A stretch of 64,000 nt of DNA, from positions 1 to 64,000 of the IMG/VR virus record IMGVR_UViG_3300044710_000064. One strand, given 5' to 3'. A model generated the notes under the pieces. That model was not told the DNA's origin and did not search any database. It was given only the letters and a program-made list of their open reading frames with translations. Source of the DNA: a virus. The translations under genes were made by a program, and so were the position numbers. Each line of letters opens with the position of its first letter. The stretch's first letter is position 1. This document shows, one piece after another, positions 14,981 through 52,474 of the stretch.

Positions 14981-15394
14981 ATGGCCACCACAACCGTCAA
15001 GTCGGAATCGCAGCAATTGACCGAGCAACTCATCGATCAGATTGCGGCGATGCTCGCCGAGCAGACCGACAACATTCAAACCGCACTCAATAACGCAACC
15101 AAGGAGATTTTGAAACAGATGGCAACGAACGCGGATGCACTTCAGACCCAACTAGCCACGGTCACTACCAACCTGACCGCCGTCTCTGGCTCACTAACCA
15201 CAATAAACACCGGGATTCAGAATCTCGATACTCTTATCACGACTTTGCAGCAGCAGATCGCGGCGGGGAGTTCGACCCTGAGCGCGTCTGACCAAGCGGC
15301 ACTAACAGCCGTGGTTAACGCTTCTTCGGCGCTGGCCACGCAAGCGGCAGCTATCAGCACAACACCGCCGGCAGCGCCGCCGGCGAGTTCATAG
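14981..15394 (+). CDS. Coiled-coil protein
   Basis: 137 residues, almost wholly heptad-like helix (LTEQLIDQIAAMLAEQTDNI onward) and ending in an Ala/Pro tail. The terminal codons contain a GC-rich inverted repeat (15366-15372 with 15379-15385) just before the structured region at 15395. No enzymatic motif. Possibly an oligomeric scaffold-like early protein; function unknown. Confidence 0.6.
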   Translation: MATTTVKSESQQLTEQLIDQIAAMLAEQTDNIQTALNNATKEILKQMATNADALQTQLATVTTNLTAVSGSLTTINTGIQNLDTLITTLQQQIAAGSSTLSASDQAALTAVVNASSALATQAAAISTTPPAAPPASS

Positions 15395-15997
15395 CGAGTT
15401 TACTGGCGTACCGGGGAGCCACGGATCGCATAATTCCCCTGTTAGCGGGCAAGCTGCCGTGCCGGTGAAATAGCTGGCGGAAAAATTCGGCTCAGGCCCT
15501 CGCGAAACGGTAGTGAGAGCGATCACGGGCGACGATCCGGTACGCCAGTAGCGATCTCCATGGAGCGCTACTATAACGGCGCGGCGATGCGGTTAAACCG
15601 GTCTTACTCGTTTTCGCCGGTATGTCGCGCTGGAAGTCGGACCGCTTCACTCTAACCGTGTGGTCCCGAGCGGTGGGGAAATCGGGCAAAGGTTCGGGCA
15701 ACAGGCGTCACGGGTTTTGCCGGCTGATACCGTTGCCCGTTGAAAGCGGCTCGCTTGCCCGGGGGGAGTTGGGTAGGCGAGTCGCCTGAAAATGTCTGCT
15801 GGCGTCGGTGGTATTGATCCGCTGGAACCCGGAAAGACTCCCGGCTCACGCGGTTTAGTCACTACGGTTAGTTCCGTAGAGCGAAACCCTCCGGATGAAG
15901 AGCATAGCCACTACCGGCAGGTTGCGAAGGCACGCCAGCGAGTTTTTCAAGGAGTGGGCGCTGGTTTACTTGCCATTTTCCGGCGCCCCAATTTTTA
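15395..15997 (+). ncRNA. Large structured non-coding RNA candidate
   Basis: A 616-bp stretch without a convincing gene folds into many nested, mostly perfect helices: 15401-15414 with 15537-15550 (14 bp); 15577-15586 with 15623-15632 (10 bp with wobbles) enclosing 15597-15601 with 15617-15621; 15639-15645 with 15660-15666; 15683-15689 with 15755-15761 enclosing 15695-15702 with 15732-15739; hairpin 15775-15787; and a 3' domain 15798-15805 with 15932-15939, 15806-15812 with 15910-15916, 15817-15821 with 15892-15896, 15852-15856 with 15884-15888 and hairpin 15862-15879. A terminator ends it. Size, phage context and architecture recall the ornate phage RNAs GOLLD and ROOL, but membership is untested. 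No own promoter was identified. Confidence 0.75.
15956..15997 (+). terminator. Intrinsic terminator of the structured RNA
   Basis: GGGCGC (15956-15961) pairs with GCGCCC (15983-15988) and is followed by CAATTTTTAG. Placed at the 3' end of the folded region and 14 bp before the next start codon, it defines a plus-strand transcript end. The 21-nt loop is longer than ideal, so read-through into 16011 is possible. Confidence 0.6.
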
Positions 15998-16010
15998 GAG
16001 AAGGAGTTTA

Positions 16011-16334
16011 ATGACCGACCTGTTACAGATTCTGCTCGACATGCGGAGCGGCCAAGTCGCGGCTGACTGCAATCTAAAATTCAACGAGGTTCTCAAGGCC
16101 GTGCTGGAAACAGGCGGCAAAGGGAAACTCACTATCGATCTATTGATCGCGCCTTCCAAGATGGGCATGGGCGGCGCGGTCGTAGAAGTCGAAACCACTC
16201 ACGAGTGCAAGATGAAAAAGCCCGAACTAGCAATCGGCAAGAGCTTTTTCTTCGTCATGCCGGACGGCACTCTAACCCGCGAAGATCCGGCTCAGGCCGC
16301 GATGTTCCAACAGCAACAGGAGTTCAAAAGATAG
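16011..16334 (+). CDS. Conserved phage protein next to DUF2303
   Basis: 107 residues with AGAAGGAG as ribosome binding site. An N-terminal helix (LLQILLDMRSGQVAADCNLKF) leads into strand-rich GKGKLTIDLLIAP and HECKMKKPELAIGKSFFFV. This small protein commonly precedes DUF2303 genes in phages. Function unknown. Confidence 0.6.
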   Translation: MTDLLQILLDMRSGQVAADCNLKFNEVLKAVLETGGKGKLTIDLLIAPSKMGMGGAVVEVETTHECKMKKPELAIGKSFFFVMPDGTLTREDPAQAAMFQQQQEFKR

Positions 16335-16336
16335 CT

Positions 16337-17170
16337 ATGCAAGACATCAATCCTAAAAGTCTCAATGAACTTGTCCGCCTGGGAACCGATGCCGCGAAGC
16401 CCCGCGAAGTTCCGGGAGGAAATATCCCCTACGCTCTGGTGCCAGAAGGCTTCACCCTTCAGACGCTGGAAAACTTCATCCACAACGAACACAACGCGAC
16501 TCCGGAGCGCGTTAAAGCTACCGTGTCTGTGTTGGACGCGGAGTCCTTCGTTGAATACTACACGCTTTTTAACGATCCGAATAGTCGCATGTTCGCCGAC
16601 GAGACCAATCTGAGTGTCACGGCGATTCTGGATTACCACGCGGCCGGAGAGGGAACGCCACGCTGGGGCCACCATCGGCTCAAGTTGGGACTGCGGAAGT
16701 CGGTCGAATGGGAACGCTGGACTGGCTCTAACGGAAAGCAGCTAACCCAGCAGCAATTTGCCGAATTCCTGGAGCAGAACTCACTTGACATAAGCTCTCC
16801 TTCGCCTGCCAGCATCGTGGAAGTGGCGCGCGATCTGGACGCCCACACCGAGGTCGAATTCGGGGCCGGTCAAAGAATGGAGAATGGGCAAGTCCGTTTC
16901 AGATACACGGAGCAGATCAAGGCCACCGTGGGCGGCGGTTCGATGGAGGTTCCGGAGCGATTCACGCTCAGCATATCCGTATTCATCGGCGGAACTCCGA
17001 TAGCGGTAGACGCGCTTCTGCGATTCCGGGTGAAGGACGGGAAACTCGTTCTGTGGTACACGCTCATTCGGCCCGAGCAGGCCACGCGAGACGCATTCCT
17101 GGCGATCCGCAACCAGATCGCGGACGTGCTGAAGCTCACCATCATCAACGGCACTCCCAACCAAGGCTAA
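16337..17170 (+). CDS. DUF2303 (YfdQ-like) protein
   Basis: 277 residues from ATG 16337. The family layout is clear: YALVPEGFTLQTLENF near the N terminus, VTAILDYHAAGEGTPRWGHH in the centre, then SIVEVARDLDAHTEVEFG and a beta-rich C terminus (PERFTLSISVFIGG). DUF2303/YfdQ proteins are common in early regions of temperate phages; their role is not established, though links to recombination or phage-DNA protection have been suggested. Paired with the gene at 16011. Confidence 0.82.
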   Translation: MQDINPKSLNELVRLGTDAAKPREVPGGNIPYALVPEGFTLQTLENFIHNEHNATPERVKATVSVLDAESFVEYYTLFNDPNSRMFADETNLSVTAILDYHAAGEGTPRWGHHRLKLGLRKSVEWERWTGSNGKQLTQQQFAEFLEQNSLDISSPSPASIVEVARDLDAHTEVEFGAGQRMENGQVRFRYTEQIKATVGGGSMEVPERFTLSISVFIGGTPIAVDALLRFRVKDGKLVLWYTLIRPEQATRDAFLAIRNQIADVLKLTIINGTPNQG

Positions 17171-37021: not shown

Positions 37022-40000
37022 TTAGCTGATAATCAACCCCGACTGCAAAATTGTCGCCTGGTTGGGCTGCCGTCCATCACTATACGCTTGTGCCTGACTC
37101 CACTGAGTCTGCACCATTGAAGGCGTCACGAACATCCCTGTCATGGCGTCCCCAGCATTCTTTCCATCGAAGTGCAAGGATACTTGCATCGTTCCGCCGC
37201 CGGGAGAACCCGGTGAACCTGCTGGTGATCCTCCGCCGGTCGGCGTACTGGCATTAGGATATTGCGTGGTGGCATAGCCTCCAGCCACGGGAAGATTTGA
37301 GGCTTGGGTGAAGGCTTGACCGTACATGTAAGTCGGAGCTTGGTAGAGAGTGCCGCCTTGTTCTTGCAGGACTCCGCCGCTTGGCGTTGTAGCGCTTAGC
37401 GGAATCTTCTGGCCTGTGCCCGCCGCGTAGACTCCGAGCATCTGCCGGACTTCGGGCGACGTGACCGCGATTGCAACGTTATGTCCGAACTGCTGGTTTG
37501 CTATATCGACAATCCGTTGTGCTTCGGCGTGGTCGATGTTGACGTGGTAGGTCCGCATCACCAACCGCTCAGCTTCTTTCCATTGAGGTTCGACGCCGGC
37601 CACGAGTTCACCGAGGCCGATACCGAAACCGGCCGCTGCTCCTATGGCCGCGCCGAGAGGACCGCCGATCTGCTCGCCAATGAGCGCGCCGCCCGCCGTG
37701 CCTTCCAAAATTCCGACGCCGGTCCCCGCATTCCTGCCAAGCAAACCTTGCTGGGCAAGGAACATTCCCGCCGCGCCGCCCGCCGGGCTGCCAGCAATAC
37801 CTTGAATCGCGCCAGTGAATCCAGAGGCTTCAGAGAAGTCACCAGATTGCGCGCCTATTTGCGATGTTGTGTTCCATTCGCCGTCACCCTTGTAGCCGAT
37901 CGAGGATTGAAGGCTCGCGAGAGGATTGAAGCCGCCGAAGGAAGGACCGGTTGTGTTGCCACCGGTAATCGGTCCGTTCGGACCACGCTCAAATCCGCCC
38001 GCATCATATGTTCCGCCTGGAATTGGAATTCCGGAAGTACCAAATAACCCGCCGCCGCGCGTTCCGCCGCCGAAGATCGTCCCAAGCAAGCCCCCGCGAC
38101 CGCCCTGGCCGAATAACGCGGGGAGGATGCCGGAGGCGACCGAGGGCTGGTAGGCCGGGGCCGAGACTTGTGGAATTCCGAACGCCTGACCGGGACCACT
38201 CGCTAACTCCGTGGGTATCGGGCTTGCATTATAGGCGACCGCACTGCCCTGGCTGACTGCGGCTCCGTAATCTGCCGTGGTCTGAGATTCAGCTGTAGTG
38301 AAATATGGCGTGCCGGCCAGCTGGGCAATTCCGGAAGTTGCCCCGAAGAATGAAAGTGGCGCGCTCGTATCTGGTGAAGCCGGAGAAGCTACGGAAGCCC
38401 CGAAGAAAGACAGATCGGCGCTGGTATTCGGCGCGGTTCCCAGGTCAGGAGACGGACCCGAAGGAGCCGAGGTGAAATATGAAGGCGCTGGAGATTCGAA
38501 CGACGGAACCTGGTCGATTGTTGAACCTGTCCGATTGATGAGCCCGGAAGGCAGCCGCGCTACTTCGGGCGAATAGGCCGTCAGGCTCACTGGAGACGCG
38601 CTCGGCTGATAGGAAACCGGCGAGAATCGCGCTGTGATGTCGGACGTTGCAGACGGCGGATTATAGAACCCCGATGTCAGCAGATGGGAAATTGTGCTAA
38701 CCGTCGGGGACAATTCAGTCGGAAGAGGACTGGGGCTGTAAGAAACTGGACTGAAAGTTGAAGCGACAGAGAAAGGACTCGGAGTAATTCCGCGTATTGG
38801 GACATTGCTACGCCCAACCAGTAATTGTTCCGGCGTGAGGCCTTCCTGCTCTGGCGAACCGATCGCCGCATGCATTTTGGTCAGAGTGGTTGCCAGATCG
38901 GGATTGCGCGACTCGAGAGCTGTAATGAAAGATCGGAACGTATTCTCCGTATCTGATCCACGCGAGAGCGGCAACTCCGCTTGACCGGCGACGAGCCTAG
39001 GAATCAGTTCATCCGCCGCAGACGGTTCATCGTAACCCGCATATTTGGTCAGTTGTTGCGTGTTGTAATCAACAAAAGTCTTGGGAAGCAGTTTATTAAG
39101 CGCCCCAATATCCTGATCTTGAAGTAACGCATGGGTTCCTTCGTGCAGCATCACGCGCGCGGCGCCATATGTATAGTCTTCGGGCTCGTAGTCTTGGCGG
39201 AGTTGCTTCGAGTAGAGGTTGATGAAGTCCGGAAGACCTTCTTCTGGCGCGAAGTATTGGCCTTCAGTGCCCGGCGTCGCCCCTTTTGGTGCTCTCGGTC
39301 GCTGAAACACCGGAGTGTTTGTGTATTTCAGGTATCCCAAGAAATCTTGGGCATCAGTTCCGTGTGCCCATTGGGGTAACCCAGTCGGAGTAATCGCGTA
39401 GCCGGATTCTTGCAGGGAAGGCATCGTGTCCGAACTGGCGTGAGGCGCGTGGAATCCCGATGCAAGTAGGCGAGTAACTGTGCTGGTCTCGGAAGGAACT
39501 GCAGCCTGACCGGAGGGCTTCTCGGCCTCTGATGCGATGCGGGACAGATTCCCAATAGGTCCGCCCACGCTCGAAGAGGATCCTCCCGAACTGGAAACGC
39601 TCGGAATCGAGACTCCTGAAGTAGAAATACCCGCCGGGGCGGCGAGGGCCGGAACGCCAAGCCCTGAGCCGATCACCTGGGAAAGGTAATAGGTCATGGC
39701 CGTATTTTGATTTTGGGCCACGACAGATGCTGTCAATCCCATTAGCAGCGGCGATTGATCCTGGGTTGGCTTCTGGGCCCCGTACGCCCGGGCTGCATCC
39801 CGCAGGAGCTGGGTAAGCTCGGCCGGGAGAACCGCTTCACCCTGATGAACCAGAGCCATTTGTGTCTCGGGAACCAGGCCGCCGGTTTGATAAGCAGGTG
39901 TTGACCGGGCTGGCTGCGCAATGTCCTGTACGGGCGCCGCGTGGAATCCCAGAGAAGCTCTTACTTCAGGAGACCTTGCCGCGATCGACACATGGTGGCC

Positions 40001-43000
40001 GTACTTTTCATTCGCGATATCGGCGATATGCTGGCCTTCAGCATGGCCGATGCTGATCCCGTAGAGCTTCTTTACCACCCGCTCAGCTTCGTGCCATTGC
40101 GGTTCAATGCCTTTGTGGATTGCCAGCGCGGCGAGGCCGATTTCGCCAGCAGTTCCGGCTTGGCTTTGGGCGATAGCCTGTAATGCTCCGACCGGTCCGG
40201 AGGCTTCCGAATGCTGCCCGGACCGGGAAGTATCCCATTGACCTGAGCCTTTGTAGCCAATGAGCTTCTCGAGCTGCTGAAGCAGTCCGCCAGTGGCGCC
40301 TTGGGTTTGCAAGGCCTGGGTTAGTACTGCGGGAATGACGGCTTCGCCCTGGTGGACTAAAGCTACCTGTGTTTCTGGAATTAGTCCACCGTCCTCGTAG
40401 GCCGGCAGCCCCGCGGCTAATCCAGGGGGAATCGAAACCGACCCTGCGAGGTAGTTTCCGGTCTGAAGCTGGGAACCGATTGGGCTTTGGACCGTGGCCA
40501 CGGGCCCGGGAGGAACCAACATGTGGGCCAATCCGGCCGGCGTATGCGAACCAGCCACTGCTGGAAGAGTTGCCGCCAGAGCAAGGACTGCGGCGCGCAG
40601 TTTGTCCATCGCGGTAGTGTTTAGGTCGAGCGGCCGGGAATCCTGATCCTGCTTTCCAAATAGCCCGTGGAATGCTCCCGCGATTCCGCCCTGTCCATCC
40701 GGTCCATAGATCACGGGTCGGAGGGCTTGCCCGGTCAGTTGTCCTAAGCCTTCTGTGATCGGCTTCAAGGTTGCCGACTTCAGCATCTCGGTAAGTTCTT
40801 TACCGAAGTGTTGGGGATGCGTGAAAAGCGTTTCAAAGAGCTTGCTGGCTGAATGTGCGATAGAGTCGATCTGCTCTTTTTCTTGCTGGGCTATTCGCTC
40901 ATTATCTGCCTGGATAGCTTTGTTGGCTTCGATGACCAACTTCATCCGGGCTTCTTCGGATTCCGTGGCTGTCCGGATTTCCAGGTTCTTCTGATCCAGC
41001 GTCCTGTTTCGTTCGAGCGCTGCAACTTGGAGGTTGTAATCGCTTTGCCGGATGACTTTCGAATTGAGCAGGATCTGGAGTTCCGAAAGTTCTTTTTGGT
41101 AAGTGGAGTTTATGCCCGCCAGTTCGAGATTCTCGCGCTTGGTGAGAAACGTCTCTTCGATCGTGAGCTTTTGCTGTTCGACGGTCAGCTTACCAGTAAG
41201 ATCATCGGCTTTCACCAACTCCAGCATCTTCAGTTGCGAATCCTTCGAGGCTGTGGCCTGAAGAAGTTCCTGCTCGCCGGTCTTCGTGCCGGTTAATTCG
41301 AGCTGGTGACCGGCCTGAAGAATCGCTCCTGTCTGGGCATGAGTCCGCGCCGTGAGAAGCGCGTCCTGCTGTGTGGCTGAAGCGGCCGCACGAGTCACTA
41401 GGTCCGCGTGAGACTGATCGATCAGGCGTTTCCCTTCTTCGCGGAAACGAATCTCAAATTCCTGATTGATCTGCCCGATGAGTTCTTTGGATTTCCCGTA
41501 TTGCTCAATCGCAATGGCTCTTTCGGCGCGAAGTTTTTCCGATCCGGTCAGTTCGGAGAGTTGGGCTTGCCGCAGTGCGGCTGCCACGGCTTTCTGAGCC
41601 GCTTCGAGTTCTGCCGTTGCGGCCTTTTCCTTGTCAATCGCCTCAATGCGTTGCTGAGCACTGACATACTGCTGAAGGGCCAAAGCCTCGCCGGCATAGC
41701 CGCCCTGGAATTGTGCGGCAGGAACCAGCTTGCCGTAGTCCTTGGATGTCTGGTCGCTTACAAAAAGCTGTTTCTGGAGTTCCGAGACCTTCTCTTGCAA
41801 CGTAGATTCGTTGTCGCCCTTGCCGCCAAGATAGTATTGCGTGCCAGTGGGAGCAAGTTTCTGAACGCTCTGAACGAATGCGGCTTCCGATTGTGGACCC
41901 GGACCGGCTCCGAGTTCGCCCGCCCGTTGATTCAGGGCCGCTTCCGCATCGAAAGGCTCCTCATTGAAAGCGATTCCGGCATTTCGATTTCCTGTCAGCT
42001 TGTCAATTGCTCCGGTGACAATCCCCAGGGACGTACCGGCGAGCCCCGGAACTTCCCGAAGCGTGCTCCAGACCGATCCGAATGCGCGGGCGAAATTATT
42101 CCCTACGCTCGTGCTCCAAGCTGAAATTGTATCACCCAATCCGACAAAGCTTTCTTTCAGCGAATCGAGATCTCGTTTGAATTGTGTGATGTTTTCGCGG
42201 TCCACCTTGCTGAAGGCAAGTCCCCACTCGTTCACGCGCTGGATGTTTTCCGCTAGTCGGTCATTAAGCAATGGAAGATATTTATCCGCATCACTGCCAA
42301 AAGCCTGAAAAGCCTTTTGTGCCCGCTCAACCGGGTCCTGAATTTCGCCCAACTTCTTGAATTGCTCGGCAAGTTGAGCCGCACCCCCGGCGTTCTTCGC
42401 AGCCTGGTCAAGAAAATCAGGAGCGAAACCCGCACGCGAAGTAGCGAAGCCCAGAGCCGCTACTTCGGGATAGGCTAAACCAGATTTGGCTGATTGGATG
42501 GCTTGCTTCTCGAGAAGTTGCCCGCGTTCGTAGGTGAGTTTGACGATCTTTTCGAGTGCGGCGACCGCCGCGATGCTCCCGGCGACGTCGATAGCCGCCC
42601 CAAGTCCGCCTTTGAGGCCAGCGAATGCGGTTTCAGTGGCCCTTGCCGTATTCCGGACGCCTTCCAGCCCCTTTTCGAGTACCGAGGAATCTTCCGCAGT
42701 TTGTGTGAAGACTTTCTTTCCTACTACCACGGCACCGGTCAATTCCAAGAATCCGGCAGTGGCGCGAGCTGCACCGCGAAAGATAGCTTCGAGCGCCCTG
42801 CCACCGGAATTGGCCATTCTTTCGACGTCCGATAGGATCCTCTCGAAAGCAGACCGGTGAGCGTCGGCCATCCGCTCCAGTTGTTTGGATTGCTGTTGCC
42901 AGGCATCTCCAAGTTGCTGATTGGTTCTGATCCCACGGTCCCGTGTAGTGTCCAAGCTCGCATTTATCTTGGCGAGGCTCTCCTGTGTGGGCTTTTCGTC

Positions 43001-43036
43001 TATGACGATTACGACAGGGTCGAGTTCGTTAGCCAT
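37022..43036 (-). CDS. Tail tape measure protein, 2004 residues
   Basis: The N-terminal third has long helices and hydrophobic stretches (EAIFRGAARATAGFLELTGA), then coiled coil (LQILLNSKVIRQSDYNLQV). From about residue 840 it becomes Pro/Ser/Gly-rich. A block with EPQWxEAERxV and HAExQxIxDIANxxxGHxVxIA occurs twice, near 925-1035 and 1710-1875, and PETQ(V/M)ALVHQGEAV twice. HEGTH at 1298-1302 is an HEXXH zincin signature. Known rule: about 0.15 nm of tail per residue, so up to about 300 nm, probably less because of the non-helical middle. Confidence 0.85.
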   Translation of the reverse strand: MANELDPVVIVIDEKPTQESLAKINASLDTTRDRGIRTNQQLGDAWQQQSKQLERMADAHRSAFERILSDVERMANSGGRALEAIFRGAARATAGFLELTGAVVVGKKVFTQTAEDSSVLEKGLEGVRNTARATETAFAGLKGGLGAAIDVAGSIAAVAALEKIVKLTYERGQLLEKQAIQSAKSGLAYPEVAALGFATSRAGFAPDFLDQAAKNAGGAAQLAEQFKKLGEIQDPVERAQKAFQAFGSDADKYLPLLNDRLAENIQRVNEWGLAFSKVDRENITQFKRDLDSLKESFVGLGDTISAWSTSVGNNFARAFGSVWSTLREVPGLAGTSLGIVTGAIDKLTGNRNAGIAFNEEPFDAEAALNQRAGELGAGPGPQSEAAFVQSVQKLAPTGTQYYLGGKGDNESTLQEKVSELQKQLFVSDQTSKDYGKLVPAAQFQGGYAGEALALQQYVSAQQRIEAIDKEKAATAELEAAQKAVAAALRQAQLSELTGSEKLRAERAIAIEQYGKSKELIGQINQEFEIRFREEGKRLIDQSHADLVTRAAASATQQDALLTARTHAQTGAILQAGHQLELTGTKTGEQELLQATASKDSQLKMLELVKADDLTGKLTVEQQKLTIEETFLTKRENLELAGINSTYQKELSELQILLNSKVIRQSDYNLQVAALERNRTLDQKNLEIRTATESEEARMKLVIEANKAIQADNERIAQQEKEQIDSIAHSASKLFETLFTHPQHFGKELTEMLKSATLKPITEGLGQLTGQALRPVIYGPDGQGGIAGAFHGLFGKQDQDSRPLDLNTTAMDKLRAAVLALAATLPAVAGSHTPAGLAHMLVPPGPVATVQSPIGSQLQTGNYLAGSVSIPPGLAAGLPAYEDGGLIPETQVALVHQGEAVIPAVLTQALQTQGATGGLLQQLEKLIGYKGSGQWDTSRSGQHSEASGPVGALQAIAQSQAGTAGEIGLAALAIHKGIEPQWHEAERVVKKLYGISIGHAEGQHIADIANEKYGHHVSIAARSPEVRASLGFHAAPVQDIAQPARSTPAYQTGGLVPETQMALVHQGEAVLPAELTQLLRDAARAYGAQKPTQDQSPLLMGLTASVVAQNQNTAMTYYLSQVIGSGLGVPALAAPAGISTSGVSIPSVSSSGGSSSSVGGPIGNLSRIASEAEKPSGQAAVPSETSTVTRLLASGFHAPHASSDTMPSLQESGYAITPTGLPQWAHGTDAQDFLGYLKYTNTPVFQRPRAPKGATPGTEGQYFAPEEGLPDFINLYSKQLRQDYEPEDYTYGAARVMLHEGTHALLQDQDIGALNKLLPKTFVDYNTQQLTKYAGYDEPSAADELIPRLVAGQAELPLSRGSDTENTFRSFITALESRNPDLATTLTKMHAAIGSPEQEGLTPEQLLVGRSNVPIRGITPSPFSVASTFSPVSYSPSPLPTELSPTVSTISHLLTSGFYNPPSATSDITARFSPVSYQPSASPVSLTAYSPEVARLPSGLINRTGSTIDQVPSFESPAPSYFTSAPSGPSPDLGTAPNTSADLSFFGASVASPASPDTSAPLSFFGATSGIAQLAGTPYFTTAESQTTADYGAAVSQGSAVAYNASPIPTELASGPGQAFGIPQVSAPAYQPSVASGILPALFGQGGRGGLLGTIFGGGTRGGGLFGTSGIPIPGGTYDAGGFERGPNGPITGGNTTGPSFGGFNPLASLQSSIGYKGDGEWNTTSQIGAQSGDFSEASGFTGAIQGIAGSPAGGAAGMFLAQQGLLGRNAGTGVGILEGTAGGALIGEQIGGPLGAAIGAAAGFGIGLGELVAGVEPQWKEAERLVMRTYHVNIDHAEAQRIVDIANQQFGHNVAIAVTSPEVRQMLGVYAAGTGQKIPLSATTPSGGVLQEQGGTLYQAPTYMYGQAFTQASNLPVAGGYATTQYPNASTPTGGGSPAGSPGSPGGGTMQVSLHFDGKNAGDAMTGMFVTPSMVQTQWSQAQAYSDGRQPNQATILQSGLIIS

Positions 43037-43039
43037 TTG

Positions 43040-43453
43040 CTAGGATGCGATTCTCAGGAACGAACGGACAATCGTGTTGAGCGCGGCGATAAAATTCCGC
43101 CGGTCAGATGGCGAGACTCCAAACTGCTTAGAGCGGGCGTTATTAATCGCCGCAATCCGTGCCGCCCGCGCATCGGTGAATCCTACGCTGATCTGGCCAG
43201 GCAGAGTTTGCAGTGGTTGAAGCGCCTGTAGGGTTTGCCCGGTCAATGTCCAGTCGCGAATCGGATTCAATCCCCTTCGTGCTTTCAATCCCGCGTACCC
43301 TCCAAGCTTTCCTCTGCCGCTCAATCGCGGCGCCGGGTTATCGTTTACATCCAGACCTCGTTTGATGCGCGTTCGGATAGAAGTTGCAAGCACCCCGGCG
43401 AGGAAATGGGCATTCTCGCCTGAGACGGGAACATATTGGAAGTGTTTAGCCAT
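43040..43453 (-). CDS. Tail completion-like protein
   Basis: 137 residues. GENAHFLAGVLATSIRTRI, RGKLGGYAGLKARRGLNPIR, DWTLTGQTLQALQ and INNARSKQFGVSPSDRRNF are typical of a conserved basic protein in siphovirus tail or head-tail clusters. It lies between the chaperone and tape measure genes. Exact role uncertain. Confidence 0.6.
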   Translation of the reverse strand: MAKHFQYVPVSGENAHFLAGVLATSIRTRIKRGLDVNDNPAPRLSGRGKLGGYAGLKARRGLNPIRDWTLTGQTLQALQPLQTLPGQISVGFTDARAARIAAINNARSKQFGVSPSDRRNFIAALNTIVRSFLRIAS

Positions 43454-43467
43454 GCTTTAATAAACTC

Positions 43468-43791
43468 ATGGGAGCAATCAACCCGCGAGATCCCTTCCGA
43501 CTGGAATTCGGAACGGAAACTTTTGAGTATTACGAGAGAATGCGCCGGGCCCTTCAGGCGATGGACGGCTGGCCATTTCGGTCTGATCAGTTAACACTGA
43601 CTACCGAGCGATGCTCTTGTGGCGCGTTTCGCGCGGCCTTGACTATTGGCGAATGGACGCTTACGGCATGTCGAGCGATGCTAATGGGTGAAGCAGAAGG
43701 AGGACCGGAGGCACACGTATATGGTCCCCAGCCGCCGAAACTCCCGCATTTACCGTCCATGACTTTAGAATTCAAATCGAAGACCCTTTAG
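43468..43791 (+). CDS. Moron 4: hypothetical protein
   Basis: 107 residues on the strand opposite the tail genes. SDQLTLTTERCSCGAFRAAL and LTACRAMLMGEAEGGPEAHV; cysteines may bind metal. Upstream is CATGCT and an AT-rich TAATAA just before the ATG, with no ribosome binding site, so a divergent leaderless start is likely. It ends by overlapping 43788 by 4 bp tail to tail. Function unknown. Confidence 0.5.
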   Translation: MGAINPRDPFRLEFGTETFEYYERMRRALQAMDGWPFRSDQLTLTTERCSCGAFRAALTIGEWTLTACRAMLMGEAEGGPEAHVYGPQPPKLPHLPSMTLEFKSKTL

Positions 43792-44896
43792 CCACTGGAT
43801 CTCTGCCTCATTCGCTCAAGCCGCGCTTGATCTTCTTGCTGCTGACGTTGCTCGATCTCTAAATTCCGCCGTTCTTCCCGCAACACTCGCAAAGCTTTAA
43901 CTTCTTCGACGGTCACTTCAGACCAAGGGATTTGAAAATCAGCCACAACGCTATCGAGTCGAAGCGCTCTGTCAAGAAGTCGACCTGCTGGCGAATTCTC
44001 CCGGTGAAAATCTAGCTCTTCGAGGGGACACATTGAACATCGTTCCGTAGTTCCCGGATCTCCGCCACACGCGGGACACCCTCCCGCACAGTGCGGATCG
44101 GCTTGCCATACACAAGAGCATCGAATGCATTTGACGCGATTCGCACGCCAGCAGTCATCCGGGCCGACGTCTCCCCCAAGACAAAGTGACGTTGCCCGTA
44201 ATAGCCGGTGAATGAGGAGCCGAAGTGGAACAGGATCGGGCCACTCCGGACCTAGAAGTTTGGGACTTGTTCGGCTTCGAGTTCATCCAGGGCCGACATG
44301 AGTTCGATCACGACGGCGGATTTGTGGTGCGGAGGAACGTCTTTGGGTTCTGGATCTGCGTAGCCCTTCACTTCCGCTGCAACGCTATCATACAGCTCGA
44401 TAGCCGGACCGATGCGATACCGGACCTCTTGCTTCCCGCGCGGCATGTCCGTTATCGCGAGAGATGGAACTCTCCGATAAAAGGCGATGTCTTTTTCAGT
44501 CGGCATCTTGATGAAGTGAACCGTTTCACCGAAGGGCGTTTTTACTGTCACATGGTATTGCTCGCCGTCCCGCTCGCACGCCGTGACATCGCACAGCAGA
44601 AGCCTTGCGATTGCTTTCGCCGCTTCGTACTGATCGAACTCGTCTCCTCCCGCGTCAAGCCGGAGTTTGGAAAAAAGGGCGAACTCCGCCTCATAGTTGG
44701 GGACAAACGTGGATTCAGATTTACCGCGACCGAGAGGAGTCCGGAGGGATCGCTGGGAGGCGATGCGGTCGAGGACTTCTTGCGAGCTTGGCAATCGCAG
44801 GACTGCCGTTTTTGGCGGGTTGAGGTTTTTAATGAGGACGCCTCTTACTTTGGCGCCAGATTCTAGAGTGACTTCAGGAAGTTCTCCGTAGGGCAC
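43788..44896 (-). CDS. GT-type tail chaperone fusion by -1 frameshift
   Basis: Ribosomes slipping -1 at CCCAAAC (44264-44258) leave the 214-residue G frame two codons before its TAG. They continue in a frame open to 43788, giving about 369 residues. The added part has CWRANRVKCIRC, HCAGGCPACGG and CSMCPLEE, a cysteine-rich likely zinc region, then long helices (VEEVKALRVLREERRNLEIE). No ATG, GTG or TTG opens this frame before the internal ATG 44033, so frameshifting is the natural way to express it. Equivalent to lambda G/GT by position. Confidence 0.75.
44252..44896 (-). CDS. G-type tail assembly chaperone
   Basis: 214 residues from a GTG at 44896. Begins PYGELPEVTLESGAKVRGVL; the mid part is helical (FDQYEAAKAIARLLLCDVTA) and the C terminus reads ELMSALDELEAEQVPNF. 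It lies between the tail tube and tape measure genes, the position of lambda gpG, which keeps the tape measure soluble. The stop is used when no frameshift occurs. Confidence 0.65.
   Translation of the reverse strand: MPYGELPEVTLESGAKVRGVLIKNLNPPKTAVLRLPSSQEVLDRIASQRSLRTPLGRGKSESTFVPNYEAEFALFSKLRLDAGGDEFDQYEAAKAIARLLLCDVTACERDGEQYHVTVKTPFGETVHFIKMPTEKDIAFYRRVPSLAITDMPRGKQEVRYRIGPAIELYDSVAAEVKGYADPEPKDVPPHHKSAVVIELMSALDELEAEQVPNF
44258..44264 (-). promoter_or_regulatory. Slippery heptamer for -1 frameshift
   Basis: Minus-strand C_CCA_AAC fits X_XXY_YYZ exactly (XXX=CCC, YYY=AAA, Z=C), in phase with the G frame, followed by TTC TAG. The -1 frame is open for 158 further codons. A downstream stimulatory structure was not mapped. 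Confidence 0.75.
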
Positions 44897-45092
44897 TGGA
44901 CTTTTCTCCTTGCTGGACTGGACTTCGAGCCTGGAAAGCTTTCCAGATCTCGTTCAACTTTCGGCTGAATGCTGCATTGATAAGGCTCTTGGCTGGACGG
45001 CTTTGCGAGTCCGGGAGAAACGCTTCAGCCATAGTGAGCATTTCTCCCTGGAGTTCGCGTACTGATTTCTCAACTTCTTCGTGACAGGACAA
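44874..45092 (-). CDS. Small hypothetical tail-region protein
   Basis: 72 residues from a TTG at 45092, helical and charged (EEVEKSVRELQGEMLTMAEA; KLNEIWKAFQARS). Overlaps the G gene by 23 bp. No family recognised. Confidence 0.45.
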   Translation of the reverse strand: MSCHEEVEKSVRELQGEMLTMAEAFLPDSQSRPAKSLINAAFSRKLNEIWKAFQARSPVQQGEKSSALRRTS

Positions 45093-45096
45093 AAGG

Positions 45097-45477
45097 CTAG
45101 TTCTCGCAGATCAGATACTCAAGCTGGCAACTCGCGACTAGGGCCAGCGCGGCCGGCGCCGACACGGACGCAGCGAACCTGAACAAAGCGAACTCTCCGG
45201 GTTGTATGTCAAGCAAAGGGGTTCCGGAAACAGCGTTCAGGATGCGGATAATGTTGGTGACATCGTTGTTTATCAAGAAAGACCATCCAACTGACCCGAG
45301 CCCGCCGAGCGAGATTGCGGTTCCTCCCGCGGTGGTGGGGATTGTTTGCGTTTCATTGATAAAATTGCTGCCATTCAGCGTGAATGACTTCGAGGCAATC
45401 GACAGTGATCTGGCGGCGATGGTCGGTGTCGCGACCTGAAGCGTTCCATTCACCGTGATAGCGTTGGCAGTTGACAT
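45097..45477 (-). CDS. Hypothetical tail-associated protein
   Basis: 126 residues, beta-rich (AITVNGTLQVATPTIAARSL; FLINNDVTNIIRILN; LALVASCQLEYLICEN). Lies between tube protein and chaperones. May decorate the tail tube; no family recognised. Confidence 0.5.
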   Translation of the reverse strand: MSTANAITVNGTLQVATPTIAARSLSIASKSFTLNGSNFINETQTIPTTAGGTAISLGGLGSVGWSFLINNDVTNIIRILNAVSGTPLLDIQPGEFALFRFAASVSAPAALALVASCQLEYLICEN

Positions 45478-45517: not shown

Positions 45518-46516
45518 TTATTGAGCCAGGCCGGTCAATCCGCACTGTGCGGTAACCGTCAAAATTCCGTTGACGCTGTTGTACTGCGGAGCTCCGACGA
45601 CATGCACCGCAACAATCCCATCCGCCTCGGTGTTTTCGACCATTTGGAAGGACATTTGCTGCCAGGTGAAGGTGACTGTATGGGTCCCGTCGTATGTCAG
45701 GGTCAGTACAGCCGTGCCGGTAGTTTGCGCAACCAACTTCGTGTACTCTGTCGAGTTGTGCAAAAGACGCGCCGTAAAATCAAGCGTCGGAACGCGCACG
45801 CCGATTTCCTGACGCCCTCGGACGGCCGCTCCGTTTTGGAGTCCCGAGCCAGGGAAGTAACCGGCATTGAGCAGAAGGTTATTTTTCCAGCCCATGTTGC
45901 CCGAGAGAATCGTCTTTGCTGCAACGTAGTCAGTCCCGTTGATCGTGAGCGCCATGGACTGAGAGAGCATGTAGTGCTCTGTGATGGCTCCGCCCAACGT
46001 GACGCCGGAGGGTGAAGTCAGCAACCCAGTGCCGGCAAAGTTGCAGGTCACCTTAGCCGACTGGCGGCCTGGTCCATAATTGAAAGCGAGGTTAAAATCT
46101 TCTACCGAGCAGCCGATGAGAAGATTGTCGATCGCGCTCCCGCCACCTTCTGCGACTTGCTCCACCACACTGAAATAGGGGTTTTCGAGCGTTGTCGCGG
46201 GGTTCGTCGGGGTGATGGTGTAAGTTCCCGAGGCGAAGACGACATTGCCGAGTCCATAGGCGGCGGCCCAAGTCAGAAATTCGGCGGAGGCGAATTTGTC
46301 AATCCGGTTCGCCACGGTGTAGGCGGTCGGATAAACGGTCTGGATGAACTCGTTTCCTTTGCCGATTTCATCCTTGTCCGTCTCAGTGCCAAATTTCGGC
46401 GTGGTGAGGTCCATGTTATTCTTCTTGACCTGAATGAACGTGGAACTCGCGGTCGAGATGTTGGTCTGCTTGTTCAGCCCGAGACCAAAGTTTAACTGCT
46501 GTACTCTTGAGGGCAT
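45518..46516 (-). CDS. Major tail tube protein
   Basis: 332 residues, strongly beta (ASGTYTITPTNPATTLENPY; HTVTFTWQQMSFQMVENTEA). It follows the head-tail connector genes and precedes the chaperones, the fixed location of the siphovirus tube protein. TFIQVKKNNMDLTTPKFGTE near the N terminus is like known tube proteins. Length is at the upper end, suggesting an added surface domain. Confidence 0.7.
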   Translation of the reverse strand: MPSRVQQLNFGLGLNKQTNISTASSTFIQVKKNNMDLTTPKFGTETDKDEIGKGNEFIQTVYPTAYTVANRIDKFASAEFLTWAAAYGLGNVVFASGTYTITPTNPATTLENPYFSVVEQVAEGGGSAIDNLLIGCSVEDFNLAFNYGPGRQSAKVTCNFAGTGLLTSPSGVTLGGAITEHYMLSQSMALTINGTDYVAAKTILSGNMGWKNNLLLNAGYFPGSGLQNGAAVRGRQEIGVRVPTLDFTARLLHNSTEYTKLVAQTTGTAVLTLTYDGTHTVTFTWQQMSFQMVENTEADGIVAVHVVGAPQYNSVNGILTVTAQCGLTGLAQ

Positions 46517-50522: not shown

Positions 50523-51290
50523 CTAGTATTGGGTCTTCATGTAGCTAGTGGTTAATTCTGAACCCAATCCCATTGAGCCCATGCGCTGCGAGAGAGCGGC
50601 AAGATATGCCTTTTTTTGCTTGGAAGCTGACATCATTTCCGGCCGTTCATCAAGATAGGCCTCGTATAGGCCGGGGTTCGCTTTGAGCAATTGAGCGTAT
50701 GCCTCGGCCTTCGAGAGCCTGCCGCCGGAATTCAGCGCCAATGTCTGAGCCTGAAGTTCCATCTTGTCGAGAGCGGAGACTGCTCCTATCGCAACTCCGA
50801 AATTGGCACCCACGGGATTCTTCTCGGATTCAGCAGAGCGTAATTTAAGTAGCTCGGCTTGGACCCTCGTCGCGGAGAAGTCTTTACCGATAAATTCGGC
50901 TGCGAGATTTGGGAAACCAGCGAGGGTGCACAGATTGGCAATGAGTTGCGTCTCAGCCTTCACGGCCTTCTTGGCGTCTTCCTTCTTTTTCTCGTCGTCT
51001 TCGTTGTCTTCGTCATCATCCTCGTCGTCGTCCTCGGGTTCGGTCTTGGTGGCGGCCATGGCCTTCTTTCCCTTCTTGGTCTTCTTCGACTTTTCCTTGC
51101 CGTCCTCTTCGGGTGCCGCGGCTCCGCAATTCGAGCAAAACTTATCAGCCGAGTGCATGGAATCGCCGCACGAGTCGCAGGTCATTGTGTCCCCGTCATC
51201 GGCCCTAATCCCTGTGGCAACTGCTTGTGGTTGGGTAGCGACGGTCGCTCCGGTTACGGCAGCGATCGCCAAGTCATCATTCTTAGGCAT
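50523..51290 (-). CDS. Nested capsid scaffold protein
   Basis: An in-frame ATG at 51290 (residue 312 of the protease gene) is preceded by AAGGAGGGCATT, a near-ideal ribosome binding site. It would yield 255 residues: a zinc ribbon (CDSCGDSMHSADKFCSNCG), a very acidic/basic tract, and a helical C terminus. This is the lambda C/Nu3 arrangement, in which the scaffold shares the protease's C-terminal part. Confidence 0.7.
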   Translation of the reverse strand: MPKNDDLAIAAVTGATVATQPQAVATGIRADDGDTMTCDSCGDSMHSADKFCSNCGAAAPEEDGKEKSKKTKKGKKAMAATKTEPEDDDEDDDEDNEDDEKKKEDAKKAVKAETQLIANLCTLAGFPNLAAEFIGKDFSATRVQAELLKLRSAESEKNPVGANFGVAIGAVSALDKMELQAQTLALNSGGRLSKAEAYAQLLKANPGLYEAYLDERPEMMSASKQKKAYLAALSQRMGSMGLGSELTTSYMKTQY

Positions 51291-52223
51291 AATGCCCTCC
51301 TTGTTTTCTGCGGCGATCGCCGCGGGAAGTTGTGAAACTGATTTAGCTGAAAACATTCCTGAGCCAGGCGCTACCTTCTGGGTGATTGCGTTGAGCGCGT
51401 CTTCGAAGGTTCCGACTTCATCACCTAAGCCGACATCCACCGCGCCTTGGGCGAAGTACACAGCAGCCTCGGTATCGCGGATGGCTTGCGGTTTAACGTT
51501 GCGGTTCCGCGCGACGGCTTCCACGAACATTTCGTATTCGCGGTCTACTTCCGTTTGAGCGTCGGACTTGGCGGTTTTACCCAGCGGTTCATGGGGATTA
51601 CCGTCCACTTTCTTTTTCCCTGCGTGGATATAAGTGAAGGCGAGACCTGCTTTGTCATCCAAGCGCGATTGGTCGACGTGCAGAGCAAAGACCCCGATGG
51701 AACCAAGTGCCCCGGTCCGGGTTACGAACACTTTGTCAGCCGCACTCGCGATGGCATAGGCTGCCGACATGGCTCCGTCGTTTGCGATTGCGTAAATAGG
51801 TTTTTCGCCACGGAGGGAATAGATGAGATCGTTCAAGTCGAACATTCCGTGCGTTTCTCCGCCGGGCGAGTCGACGTCGAGCAATACTCCTCGTACAGTT
51901 GAATCCCCGCACGCATCGCTCACCTGCCGGGAGATTCTTTCGTAGGTGCTGTTTCCGCTCATAGCCCAAAGTCCGCTCGCTTTTTTCATCAGCGTCCCTT
52001 GGATGGGGATAACAGCAATGCCTTCGTCAGTGACTTTGTAGGATTTTCGGTCTGAAGGTTCCGACCAATCCCCCGCCATCAAGCCGAATTCTTTGACATT
52101 CTCTGCATTCCAATCGAGATTGAGCCGGGGCCCAATGCCATGCAGGATGGCTTCGAGCTTTTCCGGACGAATAGCCAGGGGCGTATCGAAGATCCGGGAT
52201 TGCAGATGGGTGAGGAATTTCAT
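50523..52223 (-). CDS. S49 capsid maturation protease (with scaffold domain)
   Basis: 566 residues from ATG 52223 (overlapping the previous stop). SppA/S49 features: VRGVLLDVDSPGGETHG, catalytic Ser153 in NDGAMSAAYAIAS, TGALGSIGVFALHVD, and the partner Lys in HAGKKKVDGNPHEPL (203-205). From about 312 on it is the scaffold with a zinc ribbon (about 345-365) and an acidic run. It should process the scaffold and head proteins during capsid maturation. Confidence 0.85.
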   Translation of the reverse strand: MKFLTHLQSRIFDTPLAIRPEKLEAILHGIGPRLNLDWNAENVKEFGLMAGDWSEPSDRKSYKVTDEGIAVIPIQGTLMKKASGLWAMSGNSTYERISRQVSDACGDSTVRGVLLDVDSPGGETHGMFDLNDLIYSLRGEKPIYAIANDGAMSAAYAIASAADKVFVTRTGALGSIGVFALHVDQSRLDDKAGLAFTYIHAGKKKVDGNPHEPLGKTAKSDAQTEVDREYEMFVEAVARNRNVKPQAIRDTEAAVYFAQGAVDVGLGDEVGTFEDALNAITQKVAPGSGMFSAKSVSQLPAAIAAENKEGIMPKNDDLAIAAVTGATVATQPQAVATGIRADDGDTMTCDSCGDSMHSADKFCSNCGAAAPEEDGKEKSKKTKKGKKAMAATKTEPEDDDEDDDEDNEDDEKKKEDAKKAVKAETQLIANLCTLAGFPNLAAEFIGKDFSATRVQAELLKLRSAESEKNPVGANFGVAIGAVSALDKMELQAQTLALNSGGRLSKAEAYAQLLKANPGLYEAYLDERPEMMSASKQKKAYLAALSQRMGSMGLGSELTTSYMKTQY

Positions 52224-52474
52224 TGAACTCCGATTCCCCGTTGTCGTTCGTGCCAGAGCGGCCATTGATAGCGATGCGTACCCCAAATGACCGTAACTAC
52301 TGGCGGGATATTCAGCTGTTGGCCTTCCGAAGTCCGCTGAATTCGGAGCCCGCAATTGATCTTTCTACTCAAGCGCAATGTCGCCTGAATGTAGATTCGA
52401 GAGTCTATTTCCCATTCGTATCGGGCGATGGCCAGAACGAGGCTAAAGTCCCAAATGTTCAGCACTAGCTTCAT
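52220..52474 (-). CDS. Small protein between portal and protease
   Basis: 84 residues, overlapping the portal stop by 4 bp and the protease start by 4 bp. Beta-rich (RIYIQATLRLSRKINCGLRI; VVTVIWGTHRYQW). Translational coupling on both sides supports it. No family recognised. Confidence 0.5.
   Translation of the reverse strand: MKLVLNIWDFSLVLAIARYEWEIDSRIYIQATLRLSRKINCGLRIQRTSEGQQLNIPPVVTVIWGTHRYQWPLWHERQRGIGVQ

Follow-up and report, generated by a model that had tools for sequence, protein, structure and literature searches.

We conclude that programmed -1 frameshifting at the heptamer CCCAAAC very probably yields two products in this phage, G and a 369-aa GT tail assembly chaperone, like the pair of phage lambda. 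The window, by which we mean the whole 64,000-nt stretch that was analysed, comes from a 69-kb virus contig. A sequence-only reading of it had proposed a frameshift joining G and GT, and by the comparative data this is very probably the correct interpretation. At the sequence level, comparison with relatives establishes the site, its phase, its conservation, the coding of the -1 frame, the excess of predicted folding and the gene order. The names G and T are assigned by position and mechanism.

On the minus strand, the 3' end of the G gene reads GTC CCA AAC TTC TAG, confirming that CCCAAAC is in phase near the G stop (Table 1). The sequence-only reading had placed the heptamer two codons before the stop, which is correct if the AAC codon is meant, while the end of the heptamer itself is one codon off, a single sense codon (TTC) lying between it and the stop. 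Its description of the site as canonical holds for the X XXY YYZ form and needs qualifying for the second codon: E. coli favours sites ending in AAG, and codons such as AAC are termed mammalian-like in the cited part of PMC5009743. By that account a site with AAC as second codon is a poor one in E. coli, which counts against the reading. The -1 frame is open from stop to stop over 164 codons (43788-44282, minus strand), and the 158 open codons claimed earlier are obtained when counting starts at the AAA of the heptamer and includes the stop. As had also been stated, none of ATG, GTG or TTG occurs in the T frame upstream of the ATG at 44033; ATT codons are found at 44213 and 44126. The predicted GT protein consists of 213 aa of G and 156 added aa. 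With 10 copies of CCCAAAC in the window and 8.7 expected, the bare heptamer is meaningless alone and the case for the site rests on comparison. What goes beyond chance is that CCCAAAC is kept at this exact place in all 38 contigs described below.

Table 1. Features of the window that bear on the G-T junction and its surroundings.
Feature	Coordinates	Strand	Details and basis
G, putative tail assembly chaperone	44252..44896	-	214-aa ORF with GTG start; ORF list, homologues with the same junction, tube upstream
Slippery heptamer C_CCA_AAC	44258..44264	-	in phase for X XXY YYZ
Zero-frame stop TAG of G	44252..44254	-	
Predicted stem-loop	44215..44253	-	9-bp stem 44249-44241/44228-44220, plus 3 outer pairs
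T, -1-frame extension	43788..44261	-	157 aa counted from heptamer AAA
Cys-rich part of T	44025..44183	-	C27, C37, C45, C48, C62, C65, C75, C78 (P0001 numbering)
137-aa gene in the gap between T and tape measure	43040..43453	-	homologues in L002, L003, L006
Tape measure protein, 2004 aa	37022..43036	-	PHROG tape-measure family, E 1.7e-7
Putative tail tube	45518..46516	-	1 of 6 aligned relatives matches Phage_tube_2, E 3.7e-7

Used singly as queries, the G and T sequences gave no match in viral contigs or in INPHARED (50,697 phage records). We went round these failed searches by way of the capsid protein and then of G and T profiles. The capsid search returned 35 viral loci, three of which (L002, L003 and L006) carry G and T homologues at 36-44% identity to those of the window; in all three, CCCAAAC has the phase that it has in the window. 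Profile scans, performed with peptide patterns free of the heptamer, found 12 loci for T and 32 loci for G on partly overlapping contigs, and removal of repeated contigs left 38, namely the window and 37 related contigs. In every one of them CCCAAAC occupies identical codons one codon 5' of the G stop, and T lies in the -1 frame. Across the contigs there are 34 different junction contexts, and their G proteins comprise 36 unique sequences, with a mean pairwise identity of 0.70 and a minimum of 0.36 (36-55% between the window and the others); many of the 38 rows are close kin, and therefore 38 of 38 is not a count of independent cases. Conservation of the heptamer in relatives had been proposed earlier as a check, and it extends from the viral contigs to the junctions of 6 of 6 loci in Acidobacteriota MAGs. 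Among 78 conserved columns of G, the sole codons without synonymous variation are GAC CCA AAC at its end; CCA makes up 15% of Pro codons and AAC 72% of Asn codons.

The location between tail tube and tape measure, on which the earlier assignment had leaned, agrees with both the flank matches and the gene order of relatives. Of 46 loci examined, 44 have a tail tube gene upstream of G, the remaining 2 having no upstream DNA, and an ORF of more than 450 aa lies downstream in 32 of the 46, the remainder being partly short contigs. In the window, ORF 45518-46516 itself had no tail-tube match in the profile search, and two small ORFs occupy the interval between it and G. Several other observations concern this neighbourhood. 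A 107-aa ORF on the plus strand (43468-43791) is convergent with T, shares 4 nt with its end and had no match among PHROG and Pfam profiles. The tape measure (37022-43036, minus strand) carries a zincin-like HExxH motif (HEGTH) at residue 1298 (39131-39145, minus strand), and holds one stretch twice, one copy starting with GIEPQWHEAERVV (residue 976) and the other with GVEPQWKEAERLV (residue 1814). Further upstream, a zinc-ribbon-like CxxC...CxxC stretch (51098-51179, minus strand) lies inside ORF 50523-52355, which we read from its sequence as protease- or scaffold-like.

We considered that the frameshift might be genuine and that G and GT might have another tail or host function rather than tail assembly. 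Pfam and PHROGs profiles applied to 26 G and 25 T members gave no credible match to a known tail-chaperone family, and the lone match named tail assembly chaperone (phrog_4075) had an E of 0.4 in one of the 25 T members. Structure models had a mean pLDDT of 88 for G and 86 for T, and the predicted fold of G is mixed alpha/beta. At E up to 0.001, the fold search found no match for G in the PDB or for T in the PDB and BFVD; the matches listed for G and T included no tail chaperone, and a second look gave a best Z of 5.0 for each. The missing family matches and the mixed fold speak for another function. Against it, the order tube, G, T, tape measure is maintained in relatives together with a -1 frameshift, and the G/GT arrangement is widespread in long-tailed phages even though such genes share little sequence across phages (PMC5009743, in the part cited). 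We therefore regard a function outside tail assembly as unlikely. Within G itself, the predicted order of strands and helices looks repeated, and the two halves compared as profiles gave a local E of 0.0044 (probability 7.8%) and a global E of 0.38; the halves may represent an internal duplication.

The cysteine-rich character ascribed to T was evident, with 10 Cys within the T frame of the window. Eight of the cysteines are invariant in the 32 clade rows that reach them, and C45, C48, C62 and C65 form a CxxC...CxxC arrangement. Zinc-ribbon profiles matched the T of many relatives weakly (HypA in 22 of 25, best E 2.1e-4), and the T of the window matched no zinc-ribbon profile. The extension resembles a zinc finger, and from the cysteine pattern we infer that T may bind zinc and is probably stabilised by it.

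The sequences also bear on whether T is a separate protein, made from the ATG at 44033, from a non-standard start or by reinitiation past the G stop, with the heptamer coincidental. That ATG is present, and the T frame of many relatives contains a TTG near +48 or a GTG at +66. These positions are not shared: no start is common to all, 9 of 38 contigs, the window among them, have no ATG, GTG or TTG within 100 nt of the site, and the Met at 44033 is absent from all other alignment rows. Conservation of T sets in at the first codon past the site (KLLAPDEWP), ahead of any such start, and T is not limited to the 44033 start that had been named as the competing possibility. In six contigs (L037, L038, L039, L048, L049 and L062), which represent five distinct junctions because L038 and L039 have the same one, a -1-frame stop lies directly 5' of the heptamer, and consequently the T frame can be entered there only at the heptamer or later. 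A separate T would also leave the invariant CCA AAC codons unexplained, and we consider it very unlikely.

A predicted stem-loop follows the site. In the window, the stem begins 8 nt past the heptamer and has a predicted energy of -17.4 kcal/mol. Against dinucleotide shuffles its z was -2.78, better than 197 of 200, for a stretch that was picked after the fold had been seen. We also compared, across the clade, the 45 nt starting nine bases into the T frame with synonymous-codon resampling (n = 33). The mean z was -2.35, with negative values in 31 of 33 and values below -1 in 27 of 33, and stretches from codon 5 on had a mean z of -0.67 to +0.31. The window alone was weak in this test (z -0.93), and L037 and L077 had no folding signal in it. 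The codons that form the stem are uniform (CCG in 31 of 33, GAG in 28 of 28, CCT in 28 of 33, CTC in 29 of 31 and CGG in 30 of 33), and L055, which has an insertion, and L062 have other stable hairpins at roughly equal distance. RNAalifold on a MAFFT alignment gave 9 pairs and no covariation, and a hand-written 15-pair stem gave slight covariation (0.090 against 0.073 shuffled; 4 of 500). Because covariation is negligible to slight, the stem-loop rests on synonymous resampling and codon uniformity. An Rfam search of 43400-45200 gave one match, at chance level.

The phage is a soil phage, and its closest known prophage relatives are in Acidobacteria. A search of 84,980 genomes with the G profile gave six loci, spread over four MAGs whose titles place every one of them in Acidobacteriota (Bryobacterales, Solibacteraceae and 'Acidobacteriia'), where phyla beyond Acidobacteriota were covered by one peptide-pattern scan, which distant kin can escape. 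Two of these loci have the G of a viral contig (L084 that of L070, and L085 that of L072), and L086 has an assembly gap within G. A T profile search of the genome contigs gave no match. G matches occurred in 41 of 257 genomes of one host's order and in 3 of 396 genomes of a phylum sample, that host counted. An acidobacterium is the likely host of the window itself. We also considered that the hosts might lack queuosine in tRNA-Asn; this found no support, because the TGT family exceeded its cut-off in all 9 host genomes tested, as it also did in archaeal controls.

A more distant set consists of 65 distinct prophage junctions, 7 fragmentary G matches that fall short of the G end being left out. 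Beyond the G stop, 62 of the 65 keep an open -1 frame over 100 codons or more, and 1 of the 65 keeps an open +1 frame of that length; among the exceptions, L109 and L148 are apparently truncated at contig ends and L106 is broken. A strict in-phase XXXYYYZ heptamer is present at 50 junctions (CCCAAAC 34, AAATTTT 10, GGGAAAC 4, GGGTTTC 1, AAAAAAC 1). Imperfect heptamers, in classes set after the sequences were seen, account for 13 (AAGTTTT 7, CCCGGAA 5, AACTTTT 1), and L146 and L155 have neither kind; both groups weigh against the frameshift reading. The heptamers sit 0 to 24 nt 5' of the G stop. Compared with synonymous resampling, folding after the site was in excess in this set too, with a mean z of -1.67 at the best offset (n = 62) and means of -0.39 to +0.20 further on, starting at codon 6. 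With a pattern likewise set after the sequences were seen, a Shine-Dalgarno-like pentamer lies 4-12 nt upstream at 49 of 65 junctions. Synonymous resampling predicts 31.7 such junctions, and 84 of 2470 background windows have such a pentamer. Neither T nor G of this set had a useful match in INPHARED or PHROGs. Exactly four Cys and one CxxC are found in 39 of the 65 T domains, and eight Cys with two CxxC in 6, for example L095; the middle ribbon is thus not restricted to the window's clade. That the two frames are instead joined by transcriptional slippage, or that a sequencing error accounts for the frame break, is extremely unlikely: some distant junctions do contain a run of five T, but CCCAAAC has no long homopolymer, the bacterial slippage runs described in the cited part of PMC5009743 are 9 A or T, and the frame relation is repeated across all 38 clade contigs and at 62 of the 65 distant junctions.

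For a quick tree we took 101 G proteins, of which 43 came from the window's clade and host loci and 58 from the distant set, excluded C-terminal residues, and placed the heptamers on the result; the 7 distant loci with the weakest G matches are outside it. Parsimony required 12 changes of motif type against 26.4 with shuffled labels, and strongly supported branches alone force fewer. AAATTTT and AAGTTTT are intermixed inside small clades, and CCCGGAA has one origin on the tree. Two near relatives, L150 (GAC CCA AAC TTC TGA) and L128 (GAC GCA AAT TTT TAG), can be aligned codon by codon. The sequences suggest that a slippery site can shift by one codon via an overlapping intermediate.

Apart from this family, we scanned 15 further capsid-relative loci for G/T-like pairs. 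One of them, L036, holds an unrelated G/T-like ORF pair (15354-16402) with an in-phase GGGAAAC at 15989. In 13 of the 15, the first large ORF after the capsid gene is 490-528 aa and, by its size only, could be a tail sheath.

Taken together, programmed frameshifting at CCCAAAC would work as follows. Most ribosomes would read G and end at 44254-44252. A minority would slip by -1 on C_CCA_AAC, with tRNA-Pro moving onto CCC and tRNA-Asn onto AAA, and the downstream stem-loop and the close stop would aid slippage. The slipped ribosomes would continue into T and produce the 369-aa GT fusion. The binding partner of lambda G is the tape measure, and that of lambda T is the tube protein (PMC5009743); by analogy, G would coat the tape measure protein, and delivery of tail-tube subunits to it would fall to the Cys-rich T part of GT. 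In this scheme we infer the occurrence and frequency of the shift as well as the protein contacts.

It is quite possible, if short of probable, that these loci represent an Acidobacteriota-linked tail-chaperone family (found here only in phages and prophages linked to that phylum) in which one orthologous -1 site has been rebuilt repeatedly and a zinc-stabilised T recruits the tube. Under this reading, CCCAAAC, GGGAAAC, GGGTTTC, AAATTTT and AAAAAAC would alternate with the imperfect CCCGGAA, AAGTTTT and AACTTTT, the stimulator would be a stem-loop alone or a stem-loop with a Shine-Dalgarno-like element, and the T module would have the middle ribbon in some lineages and be missing it in others. 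If true, the family would be a natural experiment on the slippery sites that bacterial ribosomes tolerate. A homologous site traceable across about 100 loci in a little-studied phylum is unusual. The added interest lies in slippery-site turnover and in the Cys-rich T domain, which offers an opening to probe a zinc-dependent role in tail assembly.

Frameshifting in tail chaperone genes is well established in phages, which makes the finding as such expected biology, and Xu, Hendrix and Duda reportedly surveyed these genes in 2004. The G/T family described here is unfamiliar; a search of literature titles, with most subscription journals outside it, turned up no description of the family. The location between tube and tape measure, a heptamer ending the first gene and a C-terminal extension in the -1 frame are all shared with lambda gpG/gpGT, although no sequence kinship was detected and the fold matches listed included no tail chaperone. 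The heptamer of the window ends in AAC, which lambda's own heptamer is not known to do. The window's T is rich in Cys and contains a zinc-ribbon-like pair, features that lambda T is not known to share. As in E. coli dnaX, the heptamer is followed by a stem-loop, and the distant relatives add an upstream Shine-Dalgarno-like element, but the shift here would lengthen the product and that of dnaX shortens it (PMC5009743, in the part cited). In contrast to dnaX, the 24 nt upstream are free of the listed Shine-Dalgarno-like strings in 36 of the 38 clade contigs. CCCGGAA, found at 5 distant junctions with one origin on the tree, exemplifies the hypothetical 'threetwotwo' class of PRFect, and AAGTTTT resembles its 'twoonefour' class, an assignment made from the class name alone (PMC10885494, in the part cited); our junctions thus lend comparative support to slippery motifs that PRFect called hypothetical. 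Haloarchaeal viruses with g-t frameshifts include HCTV-1, -2 and -5. The first triplet of their sites differs from that of the window and their hosts are archaeal, but an AAC second codon like that of the window is present in both HCTV-1 (G_GGA_AAC) and HCTV-2 (A_AAA_AAC), according to the cited passages of PMC5009743.
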